DNA of 64,000 nt, from assembly GCA_949775045.1 (NCBI GenBank), contig OX459097.1, positions 11,936,695 to 12,000,694 of the forward strand. The letters run 5' to 3'. The translations under genes and the position numbers were made by a program. This DNA comes from Metridium senile (taxonomy: Eukaryota; Cnidaria; Anthozoa; Actiniaria; Metridiidae). Position 1 is the stretch's first letter, and each line of letters begins with the position of its first letter. Of this stretch, positions 2,603 through 63,680 are shown piece after piece. The notes under the pieces are model-generated. The model was not told the origin of the DNA, ran no database searches, and saw nothing but the letters and a program-made list of their open reading frames with translations.

Positions 2603-3464
2603 ATTATTCGTGGTCAATGAACGACACTGTGAAAACGACTATTAATAATAAGTCAAGGAATGATAAATAAATGAAGGACTAGTACAAGAATGCATAATGG
2701 ATAGGTAACTAGTTGGATAAATAAACGAAAAAATCAATTGATAAATGGAAATAAAACAAAATAGATCAAAAGATCTAGGAATAAATTGATTAAATTAAAT
2801 AGACAAATAAATAAATAAGTCATCGGACAAATAAAAGATGAATGAATAAACAATGTATGAGCAAATAAACGAATAGAACAAGATCCACGAAAGCATTCAC
2901 CACACAGGGAACCCAAACACCAATAATTTCTACTCCAACAACTTTTATCTTAGGACTAGTTCAATGATCACATCTTACATGTGCCTAATTTAATCTTAAC
3001 CTAATGCAATTGAATTCAAACAACAGGGTTTGCCCATGGTGGAGTTTGAGGCTCTTACAGTTTGAGTACAATTACACATTCACATACACCAAGGTAGTAA
3101 CTAGTTTGGTTTTATTTCATATCTGTTTCATTTGAAGTATTTCAACTCTAGTTCAAATATCACAATCTATCTATCAAATAGAACCAAGCACCAGGCTTTT
3201 TTGTTTCAAAAGTTGAGTACGAACACTCTTACTCATGATATATACATTTATACGGACAGTTATTGCAAAAGTGTCATTTCTCACAAATTAAGTTATGCAT
3301 ACTGGCAAAAATCCAGCTACACTTTTTACTAGCCACAATGCACTTTGATCTGAAAATGCAATATAATAAACCTTGGACTGATAGGCTTTATGTGCCACTT
3401 AGGTGAGAGGATGATAGGTAGCAGGTAAAAGCTTTATATAAGAATGTCTGTGGTGTGTTCATCG

Positions 3465-3845: not shown

Positions 3846-6800
3846 GTTATTGTTATTGTTATTGTTATTGTTATTATTATTATTATTAATATTATTATTA
3901 TTATTATTATGGTGATAACCCAATATTTAACCATTCATTCAACCACCCATGTCATTTGTCCACTTTTTCCAACCCCACCTTTTGGGGTTGTTGTTGATGA
4001 TACATGTAGGTTTGGAAGATTATTAATTCAACTACTCATGTCATTTGTGACATACTACATAAGTTTGCATTTACATGCGTTTACATTAAGTGTGTTGTCG
4101 ATGGTAGATTACAAAAGTTTATTCAACTACCCATGTCATTTCGGATGTACATGTATTACATAAGTTTACAGGTGTGTTGTTGATAGTAGATTACAAAAGT
4201 TTATTCATTCAAACACCCATGCCATTTGCAACATACAACTTACTTTTTGTGGTGTATTGTCAACAATAGCCTGCTCTGGCTGGTTGTCCATAGTAACTGA
4301 CTGTTCTTTAATGAGAGGGCTGATCCAGATGTAGCCATTATTACCCATAATGACTGTGGCACCGCACTGTAGGTTATGGAAATGAGTCTTGCAGCGCTTG
4401 ACCATTGTGGGAGGGATTTGAACAAGGGTACCTTCACGTAGCTACAAAAACAAAACAAAAACAGAAAAACATATTGAATGGGTAGGTAGATAAATGAATG
4501 AAATGAAGATGGAAACTAGAGAGTAAACTAGTATAGGCTGCGTCGGTGTTTGATATAAACGATGGGTAATATAATGAAATTTGTAACACCGTAAAAATTG
4601 TTGACTTAATGTAACTTTACTGATGTTTTGAGCTTTGGCCCTTCGTCGGAGGAAAAGAGTAGTAAGTGAAATGAAAGATAAACAAATAGTTGGGTGGATG
4701 AGTAAAAAATATAGATGAATGAATGGATGAACAAATGAATGGATGGTTGAATGGATGAAAATATGATTGGAGGATATTGTACATAAATGAATGAATATTT
4801 GAATGAATGAACAGATAGATTAATGTATGCATAAACAGATGGATGAAAAAAATAGAAATACCAATGACATAGTAAAGAAAGACTCCAATATTGCTCACCT
4901 TTCCATATTTCAAGCTTCTTGCATGGAGGGACAATGACCCATCTGCAAATAAAGACTGCACTTCTGCCTTAATAAAGTCAAGGACTATTTTGTACAAGAT
5001 CTACTACTCAAAAAGTACTCAGACTACAGCCTGGTTCACATGAGCGTCCTAATCATAAGCAAGAAAACAAAAGATTTATTATCCCTTGGGGAATTAGAAA
5101 ACAAAGACCAAAGTGATTCTTTTTCTAATTTCTTTTATTTTGCTTATGATTATGATTACAATTATGACACAGTGTGAACCAGGCTTAAGATGTATGGTGT
5201 ATTATTATTTTGTTTAGTACTGAATACAAAGGATACACTTATAAGATCTCCTTCTGTAAAGTATTCTCTCATCAGCAGCTCATCTTTGCTGGATCTTCTT
5301 CTCTGAAGAGAAATGCAAATGTGTGCTTCAAGAGCCAAAAAGCGGATTGAAAAAGAGAGGAAAAAGATGGGGGTGGCAGGACTGGAAAGAAGCTGAACAG
5401 GAGTTGTTTCTTAACTCATGCTCTGCAAGGAGCTAGGAGAAAAAGAAGAATATATAGATAGCACTGTTCACATACCAATTCCCCACCAGGGAGATTGACG
5501 GACGACAGCAAAAGAACTGAATCAAGTCTTGAAAATGTTTCAACTTTCCATCTCTTTTGACCAACCTGGGTTAAAAATTTATAAATAATATACATTGGAA
5601 TGTCAAATAATGAGATACTAATATTCTTTACTGTACATACATGTAGGGCCAGTTTGCATTAGGCTGACAAAAGTATTTGGCTTGACATGCAAGTCAACTT
5701 TGCTTCAACCAATAACTGGTTTGCATAATATGTAAATGCCTAAAAATGGCAGATATTTTGAAAAGCAAACCAAGATTTGGACATACGTGAACAGACCCAT
5801 ACTGCAGCCCAATAATTTTTGTTAACAGGATATACAATGTAACATATACATTGTAGATTGTCAGAATAAACAGGCGCATGTATGAAAATACTGGTATATA
5901 CCTCTGTGATTCTTCCGACAACAACATCTCCAATTTCACCATTGTACCTGCAAACAGGAATTCATCTTAGATTAATTGATGTGATTGTGTCAATTCATAA
6001 TGACAATTGTAGTCACCAATAATAAGCAGTATACAGGCTTGTGACATGGGATCAGGGATCAAGCCCAACAATTAGGCCCGGATCAGGGATCAGAGGCCAG
6101 GGCTCAGGGATCGAAGGACTGAAATCAAGGATCAAAACTTGTGATGGGATCAAATTTTTAAAATGGGGATCAAGGATCAAAATTTTGGAAAAAATTGGGC
6201 TCAGAGATCAAAAATTCCAAAATAATCCAGGATCAATAGGTTCAAAATATACCATGTTATGAGCCTGAGTATAGTATAAACAATGTTGGTAACAGAATGA
6301 ACGATCATCATGATAACTGTGAATGGTACATGTTGATGGTGGTTGAAACGTGCCAATGGCGTCAGTACTAAATGAGCACAGATGAAATCCTAGTAAAACA
6401 CAACAATAGTATTGTTTAATCTGCCATTTTTCACTCCCTGAGTTTACTGCTGACCATAATAATATTAACAGGTTCCCATTTGAATCTGTACTTTCCCATT
6501 TAAATCTGTCCTTATGCAAATTTTGTTGATGTGTGCTAAACACACAGATCAACCAATCAGAGAAGTTCACTTCAGAAATAATATACTCTGATTGGTTGAT
6601 CTGTGTGTTTAGCACACATCAACACAATTTGCATAAGTACAGATTTAAATGGGAAAGTACAGATTTAAATGGGACCCTGTTTATTATATTGTCACACTGA
6701 TATGCTACAGTGGTTATACAATTGATGATGGTGATTGCAATATTGGTGATGTATTATGATTAAGACAGAGAATATTCCAGTTAACCTGGCATGCATGATA

Positions 6801-38500: not shown

Positions 38501-38951
38501 AATATATTGAAAGACTAATTGGTACTCTGCAGAGTGCAATTTACGATTTAATTGTACTCCTCTCGTCCAATCAGAATCGAGTAATTTTGAACAGTATATT
38601 ATAAGTAAAAAAAAATAAATATATTTTTAATATAAAATATATCAAAATACCTCGCATCCAATCAAAACCGCTCTTGCGCTTTGTTGTTCCTCAAGCCTGG
38701 CCTGTATTTCTTGGAGCAACTGCTGACCAAAAGAACTGCGGAAGTCAGACTTGGCTATGACGCAAGCGGGGTTTTTGATATTTTTGACATCAGAAAGACG
38801 ATGTTCCTCACTTACTACAACAACAGCACCAATTCTGTTCAAGGCCATGTGAATGTAGACAAATTCAGGACAAGAATCCACTTTCAACACTACTCTATCT
38901 CCTCTCTTTAGGCCTAGCTCCAAAAAACCCGTCGCGATGGACTGAGATCTA

Positions 38952-39205
38952 CAATCATGGACATAAATATTGGGACACAGCAGGTTATTAGTGGTTTTTC
39001 ACATATAATTGTTCATTTTTCATCATATCCTCCCCCTCCCCCCCTATCTCAATGTTGATTTGACCAAGGAATGCCTACCAATGACCCATGTAACTCATGA
39101 ACGGTCAACATTGAATGGAGGGGGGAGGGGAGGGCTAAAAATGATGAAGGGTAACGTTTTTATTCGAATTGTTAATGTTGTCCCAAACAATATTGTCCGT
39201 GATTG
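38952..39205 (+). repeat. 254-bp terminal direct repeat, left (itself a near-palindromic MITE)
   Basis: It reads the same as 43139-43392; I found no difference by eye. Within it CAATCATGGACATAAATATT is mirrored by AATATTGTCCGTGATTG, and CCCCCTCCCCCCC...CAATGTTGA by TCAACATTG...GGGGGGAGGGGAGG. The repeat is thus a complete foldback element. Confidence 0.93.
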
Positions 39206-39449
39206 TCTTGTACAAGTAATTCATTAGAAAGTGTGATAATATCAGGTTTCGTCAATGTATATATTATTATAAATTACGGACAATGCAAGATAATGAATCA
39301 TTTCAGTATACATGTTATTTTGTACATTTTTTGTGGTTGATTGGGTTAATTTTGTGTTTTTCATATGCTCGCGGACTGACGGGATTCCTGTGTAAACGTA
39401 ATTATTATGTCATAGACTGCAAAATTTCATTTTTCTTGCACAATCAGAC

Positions 39450-40560
39450 ATGGTGGCAAAACTTAAGCCAACAAAAGTAGCGTATGCTATTCTGTTACGC
39501 GAGAAAGAACGTTATTCATTCCGTATTATCGCAAAAAAGTGTAACATTTCCAAATCGTCGGCACATCGAATATGGAAGTATCGTCAAAACTACCTTCGAA
39601 GTGAATGTAAAGAAAAGGCAATTGTGCATAGAAATAAGGGACGGAAACCTCGAATCAATGAAAGAGACAAGAGAGAAATGCTGAGAACACTCACAAGAAT
39701 GAGAAAGAAAGATGTTAATCTAACCGTCATGTCGTTAGTTAGAGAGGCGGGAATAGATCCGACATTGGTGCATCGAAGGACATTTACAAGATACCTTAAC
39801 AAATGGGGGTTTCACTTCCTTCAATCTCGAAAAAAGGGACTGTTAAGTGACAAGGACAAGGAATTGCGCGCGCTTAAAGTATGCAAAGAAGATGCGGAGT
39901 TTATTGAAGGACAATCCTACGTTTTACACTCATCACATAGCTTTCTACTTGGATGGAGTATCCTTTATACATAAGTACAACCCCAAGAATGAAGCCTGTA
40001 GACCGAAATCTCGAGTTTGGAGGAAAAAGGGTGAGGGGTTATCAATAACGGCAAGAGGAACAAAAGAGCTGGCTGGTGGACGAAGGCTTCACATTATGGT
40101 GGCCGTTGCATATGGCAAAGGCGTTGTATTATGCCAACCATATGAGAAGTTGAACGGTGAGTTCTTCGCCAACTTTATTCGGACGCATTTTAATTTAACG
40201 TTTGGAAAGGCAGGCCCGAAAGTAATGGGACAAAGACTATTTGTAATGGACAACGACCCAAGTCAAACAAGCTGTAAAGCAATGAGTGCATTAAGTGACA
40301 TTGAGGCGACATTGCATCGCATCCCCAGCCGCACACAGGACCTAAATCCTCCAGAAAATGTTTTCCATATAGTTAAAAAGAGACTCGAACAAGAAGCTAT
40401 AACTTTGAATTTGACGATGGAAACATTTGACAACTTTAAAGAACGGGTATTGAAATGCTTTCAAAGTATTGACAGTGATTTAATTGATAAAACAATTGCG
40501 AGCTTACCAAAGCGCGTAGAAAACATTATCAGTCTCTGTGGAGGACGAACAAAATACTGA
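39450..40560 (+). pseudogene. Tc1/mariner-type DDE transposase with one frameshift
   Basis: The frame 39450-39878 encodes a helix-turn-helix DNA-binding start (YSFRIIAKKCNISKSSAH) and a basic segment HRNKGRKPRINERDKREM. From 39880 the next frame continues with KYAKKMRSLL, FYLDGVSF (first Asp), FVMDNDPSQTS (second Asp) and DLNPPENVFHIVKKRL (Glu), with 34 residues between the second Asp and the Glu. One extra base near 39879 (CTTAAAGTATG) joins the frames. It is either an inactivating indel, a +1 shift or a sequence error. Length of about 370 aa is normal for Tc1/mariner. The end of the gene (GGAGGACGAACAAAATAC) is repeated about 50 bp downstream. Confidence 0.88.
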
Positions 40561-41537
40561 ATACCTATACTTAATTATTGATCATTAATTTTATCTGGAG
40601 GACGAACAAAATACTATACCGGGTGCCTATACTTATTGAACACATTCAAATGTAACCATAATCTATCATTTATTTGTCAATAGAATGTTTATTACTATCT
40701 CTAAATAAACAGTAATATTCTACAAGATTCAGGTATTTATTTAATGATAATGATCACTAGTACAATATATTATAATATAAACCATGTTTTATAATTACAA
40801 ACAATCAAGGATAATTATTATATCAAGTATCATGAACAATAGGCCGATCAGCATATTAAGTTACAATACTCCATACTACTCCACACGACCTTATGTGTTA
40901 AACAACAATATAAATCAGTATAATTTTGATAAATTATACTTGTCTTCTACGACAAATCAGTCATGTACACTTTCTAGAGCATGTACGTCTAATAATGTTC
41001 ATGGCATGTTACGTATAATATGATAATCATCATTACTCCACTGTGATCTATATAAAAGTTGATAGTCTAATAGATTTACTTAACATTCATATGGAGTAAT
41101 GTGCGTTTAAATACAATATGTCAACATTTTCTGTTGATAAGGGGACTAAACCGTAGAAGACGACTTCATAGTCTTATATAAAGCTAATTAAGATCCATAT
41201 ATTAAAATGAACAATCCTATTGTGTTATAATTATCAGTTAACATGATGGAGTATTGAGTGGAGTAATGTATAGCTTATTTCCTCGAATAAGCGCCGCGGC
41301 GCTTATTAAACTATTATCGTTTACACAGTCCCCTTCTTAATCAGAACTACGAATATCCGGTGGAGATAATTTAATGGACGAGCGGTGAAATATAATTATT
41401 TTCAACTGAAAAATAACGCTTTTGATAAAAGTTTCCTTTTAATGCTGTTATAGAGTAACATTATTGCGTTAAAATGCGGTCATTATACGAGAGTGGCGCT
41501 CATTCCAAAGCAGTGCTTATTCGAGTAAATACGGTGT
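40561..41537. other. Non-coding spacer of the composite element with a foldback repeat
   Basis: AT-rich spacer between the convergent transposase and Rep genes. 40681-40723 can fold: TAGAATGTTTATT pairs with AATAAAC and ATTCTA, leaving an ATTACT bulge. It contains GAATATTAC on the minus strand (40720-40712). 41276-41534 is a repeat with ends CTCGAATAAGC and GCTTATTCGAG, including the palindrome GCGCCGCGGCGC. No gene seen. Confidence 0.6.
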
Positions 41538-42863
41538 TTAGAATAAGTTATCGATATCTTTATAATCAAGTACGAATTTTGCAAAGCAATGTTGACAAGG
41601 TGAAAGGGATTTCTGTTTATCCTGCGGTATTTGTTTCCAAAAATTAAATGTACGCCACCTAACCTGCATCATCTGGGTATTTGCAGAATCTAATGACCCT
41701 CCTTTAACTAGGACCATAGGGGCATCGGCGGTAGCAAAGAATGGCGTATTTTTGTTGAATTCCACATCCTTGACACCAAAGTTTTTGGGCACAGGTAAAT
41801 GGACAGTATCGCCCTCTAACAACTGAAGTAAATCTCCCCAAGCAATCACAGAGGGATGCCAGCGGAAGTCGTTCAACACTACCACTTCAGCATCTTCAAC
41901 ACCAAGCCATGCAAATGTACCGGTAGCGGGGTTGGTGAAGGTTTTGTAGATGTTCTTTAAAGGAGATATGATAAAGGTTTTCCCCGTGTTAGCCGGACCG
42001 TATACATAAATGTTCCTATATTTCCCGCGTCCGTCCTTAAGCGCCTTGAAAATACCACTACAAAATGCTGACACAGACAACTCGTTCTGTGACATGAGTG
42101 TAAGTGCCATTTCAAGCCACTGGCCATTACAATCAGTTACACAGCTTGCCCCATATGCTTCATTGAGAATGTCGATGCGACTCATCTTAAGGCGTTGCAT
42201 CTGCATTGGGGCTTCTACGAATTCCTTGGCCAACTCTAAGGCCTCATTCACCACTTTGGCACCTCTATTGGCAATGAATTGGGCTAGTTGTGTTTTTCCT
42301 TCATTCTTTTGAACTACAGCTAAATTAACGAGTTCTAAACGTGTTTTGATGTTTTGTTCTTGTATGATTTGAACAACGTCAAATGTCGAATAGCGTTTTG
42401 CCTTTTTCTTATCGCCTTTATTTTTCGTAGATCTTTTTCTGTTGGCTGTTATAGCTTGCTCTGTTGAGGGTGGATCTGTTAAGATGGGATGATCTGCTGA
42501 CTTGGCAAATTCTTTATCCTCCTTAATGACATACTGGTGGGCGCTGTAGTATGTGTTGTGATTACAACTGAAATTGACTCTAATGTCGTGATGATTCTGT
42601 ATATACTGCCTAACCCTTGACCACCTTGATCTCTTGTTCAGCTTCAATGCCATGTGGTAATGTGTTGAGTTCTCTGACTCGGAGGTTTCAGCATGGCTTT
42701 CTTTACAAACAACCCAATGATTCACTTCAACTTGCGCCACTTGTTGGAATGCATTTGCAATAATCATCGCAAAAGTTTCCCTTGACGACACTTTATCTAA
42801 GTCTGCACGACTATACGTAATCAAATAGACAAGTGACTGATGCCGAGTGTTTGAAGAAGCCAT
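41538..42863 (-). CDS. HUH endonuclease / SF3 helicase Rep-like protein, intact 441 codons
   Basis: A single uninterrupted exon. Residues 11-19 (LVYLITYSR) fit Rep motif I. H68-Y-H70 in HYHMALKL is the metal-binding HUH motif. Y111 in QYVIKED is the likely nicking tyrosine with the YxxK pattern. After a Lys/Arg-rich linker (TANRKRSTKNKGDKKKAKR) a superfamily 3 helicase follows: Walker A GPANTGKT (289-296), Walker B VVVLNDF (about 327-333) and motif C NTPFFAT (about 372-378). The C-terminus has a CQHC pair. Such proteins nick and unwind DNA for rolling-circle replication in circular ssDNA viruses, parvoviruses and plasmids. The Walker A form is closer to parvovirus-like than circovirus-like versions. 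An open frame with all motifs suggests recent selection. Confidence 0.88.
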   Translation of the reverse strand: MASSNTRHQSLVYLITYSRADLDKVSSRETFAMIIANAFQQVAQVEVNHWVVCKESHAETSESENSTHYHMALKLNKRSRWSRVRQYIQNHHDIRVNFSCNHNTYYSAHQYVIKEDKEFAKSADHPILTDPPSTEQAITANRKRSTKNKGDKKKAKRYSTFDVVQIIQEQNIKTRLELVNLAVVQKNEGKTQLAQFIANRGAKVVNEALELAKEFVEAPMQMQRLKMSRIDILNEAYGASCVTDCNGQWLEMALTLMSQNELSVSAFCSGIFKALKDGRGKYRNIYVYGPANTGKTFIISPLKNIYKTFTNPATGTFAWLGVEDAEVVVLNDFRWHPSVIAWGDLLQLLEGDTVHLPVPKNFGVKDVEFNKNTPFFATADAPMVLVKGGSLDSANTQMMQVRWRTFNFWKQIPQDKQKSLSPCQHCFAKFVLDYKDIDNLF

Positions 42864-43138
42864 TGTAATACTTACTTCAGGTCTGATTACATAAAATTGT
42901 AAGAATTTGGCGTCAAATTACACTTTAATTATGCAAATACTTTGTAAAGCCATAATTTATTTTGGGCTTCCTGTGTTATCAATCAATTCAAAAATAAAAA
43001 AATAGCCACATATTATTATAAATTTTTATTAATTAGTTATGTAAATCATGACGACATACAGTTTATTTAACATTCGTGGCATTTTTGGTACGATTTACTG
43101 CGGTTTTCATGACGATTTTCATACAATCGATTTTAAGA

Positions 43139-43392
43139 CAATCATGGACATAAATATTGGGACACAGCAGGTTATTAGTGGTTTTTCACATATAATTGTT
43201 CATTTTTCATCATATCCTCCCCCTCCCCCCCTATCTCAATGTTGATTTGACCAAGGAATGCCTACCAATGACCCATGTAACTCATGAACGGTCAACATTG
43301 AATGGAGGGGGGAGGGGAGGGCTAAAAATGATGAAGGGTAACGTTTTTATTCGAATTGTTAATGTTGTCCCAAACAATATTGTCCGTGATTG
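43139..43392 (+). repeat. 254-bp terminal direct repeat, right
   Basis: Identical by eye to 38952-39205 and in the same orientation. Its right end GTCCGTGATTG abuts the TA at 43393-43394 and then resumes copy 3 exon 1. Confidence 0.93.
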
Positions 43393-43568
43393 TAGTTTCG
43401 TATTCTTGGAACGTGATGGGAATCCTGTGTTTTTGGACGTCACGGAAGACAAATGCTTCCTTATTTGGATGTGTTGTAGCATGAGCCCGCAGTAGTTGGA
43501 AAGGAGTTCTACCTTCCAGCGGTTTTAGGAGCGGCTTGTGGATGTAACTCATTTTGATTTACGATGAT

Positions 43569-52400: not shown

Positions 52401-52888
52401 TATGAATTACCTCGCATCCAATTAAAACCGCTCTTGCGCTTTGCAGTTCATTAAGCCTGGCCTGTATTTCTTGGAGCATCTGCTGACCAACAGGAATGCG
52501 GAAGTCAGACTTGGCTATGACGCAAGCAAGGTTTTTGATATCTTTGAGATCACGACGACAGTTTTCCTCATGACTTACTACAACAACAGCACCAATTCTG
52601 TTCAAGGCCAGGTGAATGTAGACAAATTCAGGACAGGAACCCACCATTAAAAGTACTCTATCTCCTCTCTTTAGGCCTAGCTCCAAAAAACCCGCGGCGA
52701 GGGACTGGGATCTAGTTTCATATTCTTGGAACGTGATGGGAACCCTGTGTTTTTCAACGTCACGGAAGACAAATGCTTCCTTATTTGGATGTGTTGCGGC
52801 ATAATCCCGCAGTAGTTGGAAAGGAGTTCTTCCTTCCAGCGGCTTTAAGAGCGGCTTGTGGATGTAACTCATTTTGATTTACGATGAT
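49479..52888 (-). CDS. Acyl-CoA synthetase (ACSF2-like, ANL superfamily) copy 2
   Basis: Coding exons: 52872-52411 (154 codons, after acceptor at 52889), 51217-50488, 49975-49479, giving about 562 aa in phase. These enzymes join a carboxylic acid to ATP as an acyl-AMP and then pass it to CoA. Motifs: FTSGSTGSPKP, GGQPL, YGSTE, WHRLGD (TGD-like), GRMDDLIK at the domain hinge, and Lys in LTRTGKLCRR. N-terminus MSYIHKPLLKPLEGRTPFQL has no clear mitochondrial signal. This is the best-preserved copy at the hinge (DD kept). Its pocket region differs from copies 1 and 3: DWTPGISWG and MKSWVTGG against DWVPGINFG and MKYWCTGG. The substrate cannot be told. All three share the unusual KCACESIQP where related enzymes have a Gly-rich loop. 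Confidence 0.9.
51430..51760. repeat. CAACATGTTGG-type repeats
   Basis: Words CCAACATGTTGG, CCAACAATGTTG and GTTTAAACGGG recur in both orientations. There are two adjoining foldback units (about 51430-51565 and 51568-51745), the second beginning CCCCGTTTAAACGGGCCCAA. Located in copy 2 intron 1. Confidence 0.8.
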
Positions 52889-57275: not shown

Positions 57276-60200
57276 TTTTTTTTGGTCCGCGTTTTCCCAA
57301 ATGGTCCGTCGACGGACCGGTCCGTCGGTCCGCCGGTCCGTTGGTCCGTTGGTCCGCCGACGGACGGTCCGTATCCGTATTTTCCCGACACCCGAGAGAA
57401 AAGTGTGTTTTAAGAGAGTGCGTTACTAAATTCGTTACCACCGGATCTGATTACATGCCAACGATACACATAGTATAAAATATTGGCTTTTAAATCGTGA
57501 CATCAAAATAGAAGAATGAGTGAGAACTTATTGTAACTGAATATCTGGTAGGGGTACGAATGAACCCGTACAGGGGCCATTTATGACTCGCCCTTATCCG
57601 ATATATATCTACAATCTTGGACAAAAGTAGTTGAGACAGTTCGCGCGCTTTGTACGAATAATGTAAATAACTGTCCTTCTTGCTAACTGACATTAATTTG
57701 ATCCCCCTCCCCTCCCCCCTACATTCAATGTTGGATGTTGGGATTGTCTGGACCACTGGCATTATCTATCAATACATACAACATTGATTGGATGGGGGAT
57801 GGGGAAGGAACAGCTGAGAAATGCCGACTAGGGCTATAAAAACCGAAAGTGTCTCAACACTTTTGTCCAAGATTGTAGAAAGTTCTAGAGAAATAAAGAA
57901 CACTATTTTGTATAGGTCACGTTCCAAGGTTGATCAAGGCCAAAGATCTAAAGTGTGATCTTATTTTTGTTGAAAGATATATCAAATTATTAATTGAAAA
58001 CAAATCTGAAATAATATTATCAATATTTTGTCCCTTTACATGATGTTATATCATTTTAAAGCTTAATAAACAAAGAATACGTCTATGCAGTTTTTTCTGT
58101 AGAAAATGAATTTGTAGTGGGTGAGAACGACTCTAAGTGAAATTGGGTGTCTTTGTTTTACTCCGACGAAGGGCTAAAGCTCGAAACGTCAGTAAAGTTA
58201 AATCAACATTTGTTACGGTGTTACAAATTTCATTATATTACCCTTAGTTTAAAATGATAACCTGCAAATATTGACCACTTCTTGTTTAATTCTTATAAAT
58301 AATGTTTGTCAGCATATGTTGGTCTTTCAAAACCGGTGGGAGATACCCTGCGAGCAGAGGTTCCTTTCTCTTACCTAGAACGACGAGAAAAGTAACCTCT
58401 GCCGGTACCCGATAATTACATCCAAGTTTCTGGATGTAAAACATTATGGGCTATCTAATTATAAACTGGTTTTAAACTGGTTTTTCAACCATGCGATGAC
58501 AGAAAACATCACTTTCCCAAGCGTTAATGCGTTGATGTTTACTTTTGATTTCAATCAGTCGAGGCCAGGACCAACAAGATTTAACATTAACAATCGCTTT
58601 AGCTCTACGCAACATTAGATATAAGCTACTCACTAAACAATGTCGTTCTTAAATTTCTTAACTGGAGTTTTTGACGACATTAAACGGAGAGCATTTCGCC
58701 ATCTTTGCTCATTGTACGAAATACGATATTTTAACTTGTCACGCAAAAACCTAATCAGTTGACCTTTGGAAAACGCGCATGCTCAACAGGAATAACAACC
58801 GGTTGCCGGCAGAGGTTTCTTTTCTCGTCGTTCTAGGTAAGAGAAAGGAACCTCTGCTCGCAGGGTAGGTGGGAGAGTAACGAGTTATAATCAACGTAAT
58901 AAATAAAAAACACGCTATCAATCAATATATAAACGCTCACACAGTTTTAATGTTGATGAGTTGGGTAGTATTTGTGCTGATTTCGAAGATTTTCAGACCG
59001 TAAGTTTTGCAGGTTATCCTTTTAAATTTCACTAGTATGCTCAATTAATATAGAAAGCTAGAAATCGTGCTTCTAAACGGTTTTGTAAACACTGCATGAC
59101 TCACAATTCATATATCTGTCAGCGAGGTCACTTAAAGGTCATGCACAAATCAACCAATAGAGATCGTGGTTTTCTGCATGTGATGTTCTGGTAATACTCT
59201 GCGGGAAGTTTTTATAAATCAGATAACAAACTCTCACAAAATACCTTTTAGAGCATGAAGCGGTAAACATGGCCGACAAAAATAAGATTAAATCAAATAG
59301 TAAAGCAAGTAAAATAAGAAACATTAAAAATTATGAAGAAATTTAGAAAAAGGAAGACAACATAAACGAACCACGCAATAATAGGATTATAGGATTATTA
59401 TGTCACTTTTCGATTTAAATTTGTTTTCTATAATAATGAATTTATTTTAATATCTCTGGAAGTATGTTACATTATTATTTTTTTGTTTCTTTAATTAAAA
59501 GTTTATGTTTTAAGTGTTATAATATTTAAATAAAAAACAATCAGCCAAGGACCCGAGGTAGGCCTAGTGCTTGCTTACTCCCATATATTTGCTTTATGCC
59601 GGTATAGTATGTGCCGCGCTGGACCATGCACCTCCGATGGACAGGGTTTTTGGACTTGCTGTCTTCAACTGGGTGTATATTTTACCCCAAATGTCCAAAA
59701 CAGTATTTAGAATAAAAGGTCGTAGGGTTTATTATTTTTTTTTTAAAGAAACGTTAATTTATTTCGACAAAACGCCTCAGTATGCGAATGCGAAAGGACC
59801 ACTAAAATTGGCTCATTTTCCGATTGCTCTTGAAGAGGGTATGGAGCTTTTACTCTCACGTGTCTATAATATAGGGTCAGGATTTTAGACCTCTTGTGGA
59901 ACATCGCTATCGAAATCCATGCACGTCAAGTCCCCCTAACCCCCAACCCCCGACCTCATTGTGCTTTGCCAGGAGCATGGTTATGCATGACAAGATAATC
60001 TGTTCTCGATCGCACAGGGATATATGGTAAAAGGGAGGGTAATAGTTGCTTTCTAATGGGATTGACAACATTCCTATTTAATTATCAGGGTTGGTACAAT
60101 CCACCCCTACCTTTTTCTCCTATCGGTACTAGTTGCCCATCTTTATTAATGATCTTCATTTCATAACCATTGACTATATCCATCAGACCAACTTCTATTT

Positions 60201-63200: not shown

Positions 63201-63680
63201 TACCTCGCATCCAATCAAAACCGCTCTTGCGCTTTGCAGTTCCTCAAGTCTGGCCTGTATTTCTTGGAGCAACTGCTGACCAAAAGGACTACGGAAGTTA
63301 GACTTGGCTATGACGCAAGCGGGGTTTTTGATATCTTTGACATCAGAAAGACAGTCTTCCTCACTTACTACAACAACAGCACCAATTCTGTTCAAGGCCA
63401 TGTGAATGTAGACAAATTCCGGACAGGAATTCACCATCAAAAGTACTCTATCTCCTTTCTTTAGGCCTAGCTCCAAAAAACCAGCTGCGAGGGACTGAGA
63501 TCTAGTTTCATATTCTTGGAAGGTGATGGGAACCCTGTGTTTCTGAACGTCACGGAAGACAAATGCTTCCTTATTTGGATGTGTTGTAGCATGAGCTCGC
63601 AGTAGTTGGAAAGGAGTTCTACCTTCCAGCGGTTTTAGGAGCGGTTTGTGGGTGTAACTCATTTCGATTGACGACGATAT
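55858..63680 (-). CDS. Acyl-CoA synthetase (ACSF2-like, ANL superfamily) copy 1
   Basis: Coding exons: 63662-63204 (153 codons, after acceptor at 63683-63681), 60837-60111, 56354-55858, giving 560 aa in phase with no stop. Motifs: FTSGSTGSPKP about residues 199-209, GGQPL about 320, YGSTE 346-350, WNHLGD, GR about 446 and catalytic Lys about 543. The start at MSYTHKPLLK is preferred because homologous ATGs follow a conserved acceptor in all copies. The first, non-coding exon should lie beyond 64000. Oddities: GRMDHLIK has His where Asp is usual, and SIQPIEVEQ and GLTIKPHYY carry changes not seen in copies 2 and 3. Function may be altered. Intron 2 is long (3.8 kb) and repeat-filled. Confidence 0.9.
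57180..57466. repeat. Inverted-repeat element with GGTCCGTC core
   Basis: GTCGTTGGTGTTTTAATCAG at the left and CTGATTACATGCCAACGATA at the right. Inside are a (TTTA)n stretch (57236-57283) and a GC-rich core of GGTCCGTCGGTCCGCC words (57294-57372), very unlike the AT-rich surroundings. Confidence 0.8.
57612..57875. repeat. Palindromic MITE with TA duplication, CAATCTTGGACA ends
   Basis: CAATCTTGGACAAAAGT and its complement ACTTTTGTCCAAGATTG, with TA on both sides (57610-57611, 57876-57877). The core has CCCCCTCCCCTCCCCCC and CATTCAATGTTG. Ends and core both resemble the 254-bp repeats at 38952 and 43139, so this is a related MITE that the same transposase family may have moved. Confidence 0.88.
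58161..58190 (+). ncRNA. Hammerhead-ribozyme-like motif
   Basis: The sequence runs CTCCGACGAAGGGCT, AAAGCTC, GAAACGTC. GGGCT and AGCTC can pair as stem II around AA, followed by the core GAAAC and a GTC cleavage-site triplet. The usual CTGANGA core is CCGACGA here (one change at the conserved U). Such motifs sit in the terminal repeats of Penelope-like elements, and ACGU self-pairing allows dimers. Activity is uncertain. Confidence 0.4.
58346..58865. mobile_element. 520-bp non-autonomous element with long perfect TIRs
   Basis: CCCTGCGAGCAGAGGTTCCT at the left is mirrored by AGGAACCTCTGCTCGCAGGG at the right, and the identity continues for about 50 bp (TTACCTAGAACGACGAGAAA). It is flanked by TA (58344-58345, 58866-58867). 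No ORF. Confidence 0.9.
61431..62510. mobile_element. 1.08-kb element densely packed with GCGTAAAG
   Basis: The ends CACGACACGAAATTTCAAAT and ATTTGAAATTTCGTGTCGTG are perfect inverted repeats. About 61455-61820 and 62225-62490 contain dozens of GCGTAAAG, CTTTACGC and close variants on both strands, often as hairpins. The centre (61830-62220) is unrelated and holds GCGCATGATCGTGTTACGGA with an inverted partner GATCATGCGC. No ORF. Confidence 0.85.
63117..63180. repeat. Perfect 31-bp-arm hairpin next to a splice donor
   Basis: GCGAATACCATAGTGCTCTA with GCTTTTGTATT at the left is followed after only TT by the exact reverse complement. The arms are 31 nt without mismatch. It ends 23 bp from the exon 1 donor of copy 1 (63203), and the other copies lack it. 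Confidence 0.95.

Follow-up and report, generated by a model that had tools for sequence, protein, structure and literature searches.

A Tc1/mariner transposon of Metridium senile with long direct repeats and a HUH-SF3 Rep gene, and its proposed replicative cycle

The 4,441-bp insertion at positions 38952-43392 of the DNA analysed (64,000 nucleotides of Metridium senile, here called the window) is probably a composite-like Tc1/mariner transposon with a CRESS/parvovirus-type replication initiator (Rep) as a fixed second gene, in which Rep would make circles with one direct repeat (L) as well as multimers, and the transposase would carry out their insertion. The insertion is laid out as L-INT-L, with the direct repeats enclosing the transposase gene and the convergent HUH-SF3 Rep gene, and comprises the following features (strand in brackets where applicable).

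38950..38951: left target-site duplication TA (TA flanks on both sides in 17/17 complete single copies of the family; empty sites)
38952..39205 (+): left copy of the 254-bp direct repeat (L), which forms a mini-transposon bounded by inverted ends of its own, CAATCATGGACA..TGTCCGTGATTG, and has a foldback inside
39206..43138: internal region INT, 3,933 bp, starting with TCTT and ending with AAGA
39450..40560 (+): Tc1/mariner DD34E transposase gene, frame-broken here (open pieces 39450-39974 and 39847-40560)
41538..42863 (-): HUH endonuclease and SF3 helicase Rep, 441 aa, open frame
43139..43392 (+): right copy of the direct repeat L, 254 bp, with the same sequence as the left copy
43393..43394: right target-site duplication TA (TA-flanked copies; empty sites)

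The boundaries given by the sequence-only reading, which had defined the insertion by exact empty sites, were correct to the base. TA ends the left flank and starts the right flank, and the flanks joined with one TA matched the sister gene copy at 63204-63669 across the junction at 93% without gaps (0) and the sister gene copy at 52411-52880 at 90%, with a single 3-nt gap away from the junction; the empty sites are the TA dinucleotides at 63503-63504 and 52713-52714.

The transposase matched the Pfam profiles DDE_3 (E 5e-12) and HTH_Tnp_Tc3_2 (E 3e-4, below the cut-off of the latter profile); a fold search returned Mos1 (E 2e-12), and the catalytic residues D167, D266 and E301 correspond to DD34E. 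The earlier description of the two genes held for these residues and for an intact Rep with its named motifs, the exception being the transposase of the window copy, whose frame is broken by a short insertion that is absent from the 16 other complete single copies (INT 3,927-3,929 bp in these copies). A transposase of 368 aa is open in 15/17 and broken in 2/17 of the complete single copies. The 441-aa frame of Rep contains the HxH nuclease motif (H68-x-H70), one catalytic Tyr (Y111xxK114, YxxK) and an SF3 helicase with GPANTGKT, VVVLND and FFATAD. SF3 motif C usually ends in N, and here it ends in D. When Rep was aligned with 25 relatives (26 sequences, 47-66% identity), the residues of the nuclease and helicase motifs were invariant or nearly so, and 14 of the 26 sequences matched the Pfam profile PPV_E1_C. 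A sequence search of solved structures with Rep gave no clear match (best E 0.027); a fold search of solved structures gave a clear one, of viral type, with an SF3 helicase of the AAV/E1 type.

Copies of the element were collected from the same genome. Among the matches listed, at least 60 transposase copies at 25 loci belong to the family of the window element (family 1), and a second family follows the same plan, with a Rep and a transposase that are each 52% identical to those of family 1. The ends are the same in all 17 complete single copies, INT is collinear and the two genes are present together; family-1 single copies differ from each other by only 0.05%. Left out of the 17 was an older, truncated relative (L025, C4) in which one L has diverged (91%), Rep persists as pieces at 96-99% and the transposase searches gave no match. 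Beyond this genome, Rep and transposase matches on contigs of equal length, taken as a stand-in for the same contig, were found in 8 further cases among the matches listed (9 including the window family), against a mean of 1.6 and a maximum of 6 in a shift control, and the divergence of Rep was correlated with that of the transposase (10 pairs, Mantel r 0.80, p 1e-4). The two genes thus appear, as judged from these matches, to travel together in further contigs; those listed with a named organism are from anthozoans (Porites, Oculina, Exaiptasia, Dendronephthya).

The proposal that the two genes form one hybrid element is therefore well supported, both genes being carried by 17/17 single copies and by a second, deeply diverged family. 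Chance nesting of a Tc1 element and an endogenous viral Rep, in either order, draws some plausibility from endogenous RepE1 cressvirus sequences described from sea anemones (PMC11071296), but is refuted, and left with practically no probability, by the joint presence of both genes in the 17 copies, the second family and the 8 outside pairs of equal length, together with their correlated divergence. Homologous transposons devoid of Rep elsewhere, or an insertion boundary of Rep's own, had been named as observations that would speak for separate elements; the relatives carry Rep, and no such boundary was found, INT being collinear in the 17 complete single copies. Hardly more probable is a capsid-bearing circular DNA virus that integrates by a Tc1-type transposase and whose proviruses would be the present copies. 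The viral type of Rep would agree with it, as would the RepE1 cressviruses with capsid genes described from an anemone in the same paper. Against it, and against placement among the CRESS DNA viruses, only two genes and no capsid gene lie in the one sister copy examined; inside that copy no third open frame of at least 80 aa was present, barring two exceptions (one antisense to Rep, one running from the right L into the flank). Moreover, none of the 26 IMG/VR stretches retrieved with two patterns, which divergent relatives could escape, was confirmed to encode a relative.

The terminal repeats are themselves mobile. The two L of the window copy (38952-39205 and 43139-43392), which the sequence-only reading had overlooked, are 100% identical over 254 bp, and the size of L in these elements is 254-272 bp. 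Each L has Tc1-type inverted ends of its own, making it a complete mini-transposon, and folds as DNA with a z of -4.1. With up to 1 mismatch, CAATCAYGGACA occurs 7 times in the window (0.61 expected): 4 times in this element, 2 times in another MITE and once elsewhere. Solo copies of L flanked by TA are present in the genome, in numbers that are lower bounds since the search patterns required exact ends; in a DNA search with L, 40 of 115 candidates were scored, all of them exact copies. A third type of L was also seen among the solo copies. Tc1/mariner elements leave a short excision footprint that results from a 2-3-nt staggered cut. Correspondingly, L has been removed by itself with CA/TG footprints at 6 + 43 junctions: 47/49 junctions lacking L read CATG or keep 2-3 nt of it, and the remaining 2/49 (CACTG and CACATC) both start with CA. 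A Tc1-type cut thus excises L and leaves CA/TG. These footprints and the TA duplications support the suggestion that a Tc1-like transposase inserted the element, which shows the DD34E transposase, the TA duplication and the short excision footprints of Tc1/mariner.

Because the element starts and ends with the direct repeat L, its genomic forms can be written as (L-INT)n-L, with n = 0, 1, 2 or higher; wherever their ends were read, TA bounds them. Arrays, mostly head-to-tail and with up to 16 units among those listed, make up 8/25 and 15/32 listed loci, the first figure being that of family 1. In 5/8 family-1 arrays a single TA-flanked right end was found, with no such end between the units; an exact TA-flanked right end was not found in 2/8 (C6 and C7:12.6 Mb) and two unclear ones are present in the C8 array, so that not every array is shown as one clean insertion.

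The main rival to circle formation, which we rate as somewhat unlikely, holds that Rep only nicks or breaks chromosomal L and that this triggers unequal exchange or gene conversion among copies of L, so that arrays grow in place, solo L is the reciprocal product and a free circle is irrelevant. The model is the one that the authors of KolobokP proposed for that element, whose (LTDR-INT)n-LTDR forms are of the same kind (PMC9587614), except that Rep here takes over from the homing endonuclease. The single right ends of the five arrays are compatible with it, as are the C14:6.43-Mb array, whose three transposase rows have the same 73% match and the same stops and look like copies of one another, and the 3-unit higher-order pattern of the C7 array, whose spacings (4183-3933-3933) fit local duplication. 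However, the share of loci with arrays despite a divergence of 0.05% would demand frequent exchange soon after insertion, a nick does not require an SF3 replicative helicase, and the model assigns no role to the INT ends pairing with each other around one L.

Still less probable is that Rep is a passenger or a regulator, for instance a DNA binder controlling the transposase, with arrays and solo L arising from ordinary recombination and MITE activity. It would be compatible with the persistence of the six-unit array at C9:7252108 (units counted as transposase copies), in which one fetched unit is without most of Rep; this Rep-less form, known from that unit, is a deletion within family 2, and the array indicates that Rep in cis is not needed. 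A passenger would not, however, be expected to stay open in 17/17 complete single copies, of which 2/17 have a broken transposase, nor to retain an open 447-aa frame beside a broken transposase in two family-2 copies (L029, L032), nor to keep its nuclease and helicase motif residues (nearly) invariant in 26 aligned sequences.

Replication of a circle by Rep would fit both the arrays and the identical pairs of L, arrays and circles being indistinguishable once assembled. Rep would nick in or beside the foldback L, and the stretch from one L to the next, one L-INT unit, would be copied out of chromosomal DNA to give a circle with one L, a step paralleled by circular ssDNA viruses, which escape from tandem clones. 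Rolling-circle copying of this circle would then yield head-to-tail multimers; the transposase would make two cuts, each at the outer end of an L and the second at an L further along, and the piece, inserted at TA (C-TA-G preferred), would give an array, a single copy or a solo L. Passage through the one-L stage would keep the pair of L identical, in the way that LTRs are kept identical by reverse transcription, and would restore copies whose L was lost by excision. The CRESS nonanucleotide pattern NANTATTAC was absent from either L, and the two INTs contained it at three dispersed positions; an origin of a known kind was thus not recognised. This counts against the cycle, as do the KolobokP arrays formed without any Rep, the C9 array, the family-1 arrays in which one clean right end was not found, and the short contigs of unit size (3.3-4.8 kb), which hold 37 of 120 listed Rep matches and may be collapsed arrays. 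The chances appear to us evenly balanced that the element is a replicative Tc1/mariner transposon that passes through an extrachromosomal one-L circle by means of its own AAV/geminivirus-type Rep and re-enters the chromosome as concatemers through its transposase, with a plasmid-like stage in animal nuclei that involves neither capsid nor reverse transcriptase, and with L serving as origin, transposon end and template that restores the terminal repeats.

The element shares DD34E, a Mos1-like fold, TA duplication, inverted ends and short footprints with the IS630-Tc1-mariner group, from which it differs in its direct-repeat architecture, replication gene and tandem arrays. Helitrons combine a HUH Rep in a eukaryotic transposon with an SF1 helicase and have neither target duplication nor inverted ends; this class was rejected on the TA duplication, the inverted ends and the SF3 helicase of AAV/E1 type. 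The closest known system is KolobokP, which has the same architecture with another transposase superfamily and nuclease. As described in PMC9587614 (Kojima and Bao 2022), its INT likewise encodes two DNA-cutting enzymes, one of them a DDD/E transposase, and is enclosed by two long terminal direct repeats. These repeats carry inverted ends of their own, occur solo and in (LTDR-INT)n-LTDR arrays and are excised alone. KolobokP differs in belonging to the Kolobok superfamily with a His-Me homing endonuclease, whereas the present element combines Tc1/mariner and an HUH-SF3 Rep with TA duplication, and in the length of its repeats (about 450 or 660 bp, here 254-272 bp). In that report its arrays arise without any Rep and its repeats are called unlike those of any other DNA transposon; the present element thus has the KolobokP-type composite architecture and falls outside the KolobokP lineage. 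RepE1 cressviruses resemble it, by description, in a Rep with HUH and papillomavirus E1-like SF3 domains, in anemone hosts and in reported high-copy integration, but the examples in the main text of PMC11071296 pair Rep with capsid genes, and that text nowhere uses the words transposase, Tc1 or mariner. Teratorn also joins a transposase to a viral replicon and differs in its size (about 180 kb), herpesvirus genome and piggyBac transposase; rolling-circle concatemers with two transposon copies let one unit integrate, as a review argues (PMC10175614).

A search of titles and abstracts, with most subscription journals and Repbase reports outside its coverage, returned no element that combines a Tc1/mariner transposase with a HUH Rep. 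If the proposed cycle is correct, it would constitute a new mode of eukaryotic DNA transposition and link DNA transposons to CRESS/parvovirus-type replicons. Host repair and S-phase timing are, to our knowledge, the only recognised means by which cut-and-paste transposons gain copies, and a replication initiator of its own would let a Tc1/mariner element multiply directly. Together with KolobokP the element would make two independent cases of one architecture (transposase, nicking or cutting enzyme and long direct repeats), which points to a general design. It could, furthermore, account for tandem arrays of near-identical DNA in animal genomes.

The element lies at 38952-43392 of the window (G000:C3:11936695-12000694 of the source genome, which comprises 389 Mb in 169 contigs) in one of several sister acyl-CoA-synthetase-like gene copies, and is bordered on both sides by TA dinucleotides. 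The AMP-binding match of this host gene (E 3.6e-6, 26.4 bits) is under the cut-off of that profile. An empty-site comparison had been used to delimit the insertion, and its outcome was confirmed, with the flanks and a single TA matching two other gene copies of the window across the junction. The plus-strand transposase and minus-strand Rep genes converge, as the sequence-only reading had noted, between two directly oriented, 100% identical copies of a 254-bp repeat (L) that has inverted ends of its own as well as a long foldback (fold z -4.1). The internal region between them is termed INT. Features of the window are as follows:

38952-43392: element, L-INT-L
38651-38951 with 43393-43560, 52411-52880 and 63204-63669: exon of at least three tandem acyl-CoA-synthetase-like gene copies, which are 90-93% alike over this exon
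40539-40558 and 40596-40615: exact 20-bp direct repeat, with one copy where the transposase gene ends and the other just beyond it
57610-57877: solo MITE of another L-like family, about 264 bp long, flanked by TA and with CAATCTTGGACA..TGTCCAAGATTG as its ends

A genome search with Rep yielded at least 96 matches (95 of 391 candidates scored); among those listed, 60 showed 96-100% identity (some partial), 35 showed 52%, and one was a fragment. A piece of the transposase yielded at least 150 (150 of 344 candidates scored), those listed comprising 60 of the window's family (family 1), three of them with a 73% match and internal stops, and 90 at 51-52%. After merging of listed neighbours less than 11 kb apart, the 60 listed family-1 transposase copies fell into 25 loci, namely 17 single copies and 8 arrays (2, 3, 3, 3, 3, 4, 9 and 16 listed units). 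The window copy and all 16 other single loci, which were fetched, formed the single-copy set, leaving out an older truncated copy on contig C4 (L025). All 17 are L-INT-L elements of 4435-4441 bp with TA on either side, preceded by CTA in 16 and followed by TAG in 15 cases, and their mean pairwise divergence is 0.05%. Two of them (L021 and L022; G000:C11:7812000-7836000) are located 15 kb apart and were counted as one insertion event; because their immediate flanking sequence is common to both, one probably arose by segmental duplication. Rep is open in 17/17 and the transposase in 15/17 copies. For the window element, the reported integrity of Rep held, but its transposase gene is among the two broken ones. 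The sister copy L010 contains no further open reading frame of at least 80 aa inside the element except two, one antisense to Rep and one straddling the boundary between the right L and the flank.

The same plan recurs in a diverged family of this genome (family 2, repeat L2), with at least 90 copies at no fewer than 32 loci (17 single, 15 arrays) among the matches listed; these are lower bounds, as several Rep loci (C11, C15, C16, C151) are absent from the transposase list. One copy (L030) is a 4.9-kb L2-INT-L2 element with an identical 272-bp repeat pair, genes for a 364-aa transposase and a 447-aa Rep (58-60% DNA identity to family 1), and CC-TA upstream and TA-GG downstream. Another copy, on C10, has this TA-bounded structure at its two ends (L039, L040). 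A MAFFT alignment shows L1 (the family-1 L) and L2 to be 50% alike. Both have a C-rich tract, CAATCAT at the terminus and, within the foldback, CAATGTTG/CAACATTG; the foldback has a fold z of -5.9 in family 2 (input one base out of register). A family-2 derivative (L031; G000:C9:7251800-7255300) has six tandem transposase copies with periods of 2816-3254, and its fetched unit combines an open transposase with a deletion of most of Rep. About 147 kb of C2 (37345533-37492220) hold 28 listed family-2 units, the sole unit fetched (L032; G000:C2:37345200-37350100) having an open Rep and a broken transposase frame.

Searches for relatives outside this genome returned 372 Rep and 283 transposase sequences (E up to 1e-3), with the window's own family counted in both; an alignment search enlarged the Rep set to 567. 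Within the top 120 listed for each gene, Rep and transposase contigs had exactly the same length in nine pairs, one of them the window's own (shift control over 400 shifts: mean 1.6, maximum 6), which is indirect evidence that both genes share one contig. Across these nine pairs and family 2, Rep and transposase distances are correlated (r 0.80, p 1e-4, 10 pairs). Hosts named in these lists are anthozoans. A composite Tc1/mariner element with Rep as a constant second gene is well shown. Literature searches, with subscription journals and Repbase reports mostly outside their range, found no report of this combination, and the accessible part of a study on the origin of CRESS Reps (PMC6668415) names no such element. 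RepE1 cressviruses are described in anemones (PMC11071296), which suggests them as a source of Rep.

Left and right L are exactly identical in 14/17 family-1 copies and in L030, while the L of the two families differ by half. Under mere cut-and-paste from the outer ends, left and right L would diverge, and one would expect the left L to be similar between the two families; the pair is therefore likely to be regenerated from a single copy, through either a circle or conversion. The INT ends are mutually complementary (4 bp in family 1 and 12 of 14 in family 2). In a circle or array they constitute the base of the foldback of L; in a single insertion they adjoin separate L copies at a distance of nearly 4 kb. 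This pairing around one L suggests that a circular or single-stranded form may be a working form. Rep may copy the element as circles. Alternatively, it may induce exchange, as modelled for KolobokP (PMC9587614, as far as available), whose architecture is the same although its superfamily differs and its enzyme is a homing endonuclease; its authors describe it as unlike any other DNA transposon. For copying as circles, the argument made for Teratorn in the accessible text of PMC10175614 is relevant, namely that replication concatemers allow the transposase to integrate one unit. Most of Rep is missing from the fetched unit of the C9:7252108 array, so an array does not require Rep in cis; Rep may be supplied in trans or be dispensable.

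Neighbouring listed array units have the same orientation in 33/35 and 56/58 cases. The usual family-1 period is L+INT (4183) or INT plus a footprint (3932-3934); the C7 array has irregular spacings. Genome-wide, the exact right end with TA directly after it was detected 36 times: once at each of the 17 family-1 single copies, once in 5/8 family-1 arrays (including the 9-unit array) with none between their units, and twice near the C8 array; the remainder are solo L or fragments. This genome-wide pattern search found none in the C6 and C7:12.6-Mb arrays. With one such end each and none between units, at least five family-1 arrays behave as a single insertion, (L-INT)n-L. The 16-unit array contains one inverted L-INT-L segment (L037, L038; G000:C7:12668800-12673500), whose breakpoints coincide precisely with the outer ends of its two L; the AAGA/TCTT flanks are retained and TA is absent. 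In a family-2 array (L033; G000:C2:7814300-7815500), two L2 are fused end to end across the terminal 9 bp, which may explain the 4839-bp spacings. Coral tandem MITE arrays with TTAA sites, as described in the available text of PMC2872659, belong to a different superfamily.

L also moves on its own. A pattern search (control patterns: 0) detected at least five TA-flanked solo L of the family-1 type and at least 21 of family-2 and similar types. L-less junctions read AAGA-x-TCTT in family-1 arrays (n=6; pattern admitting 2-8 bases) and CTCAGA-x-TCTGAG in family-2 arrays (n=43). At 47/49 of them x is CATG, ATG, CTG, CAG, CAT, CA or TG, the other two being CACTG and CACATC; a Tc1-type cut with a 2-nt overhang on ends CA..TG leaves such footprints. 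None of the 43 family-2 junctions is blunt in a pattern allowing 0-10 bases, so L was once present there and then lost. In one further family-2 copy (L029), the right L2 is gone, with a footprint left next to TA.
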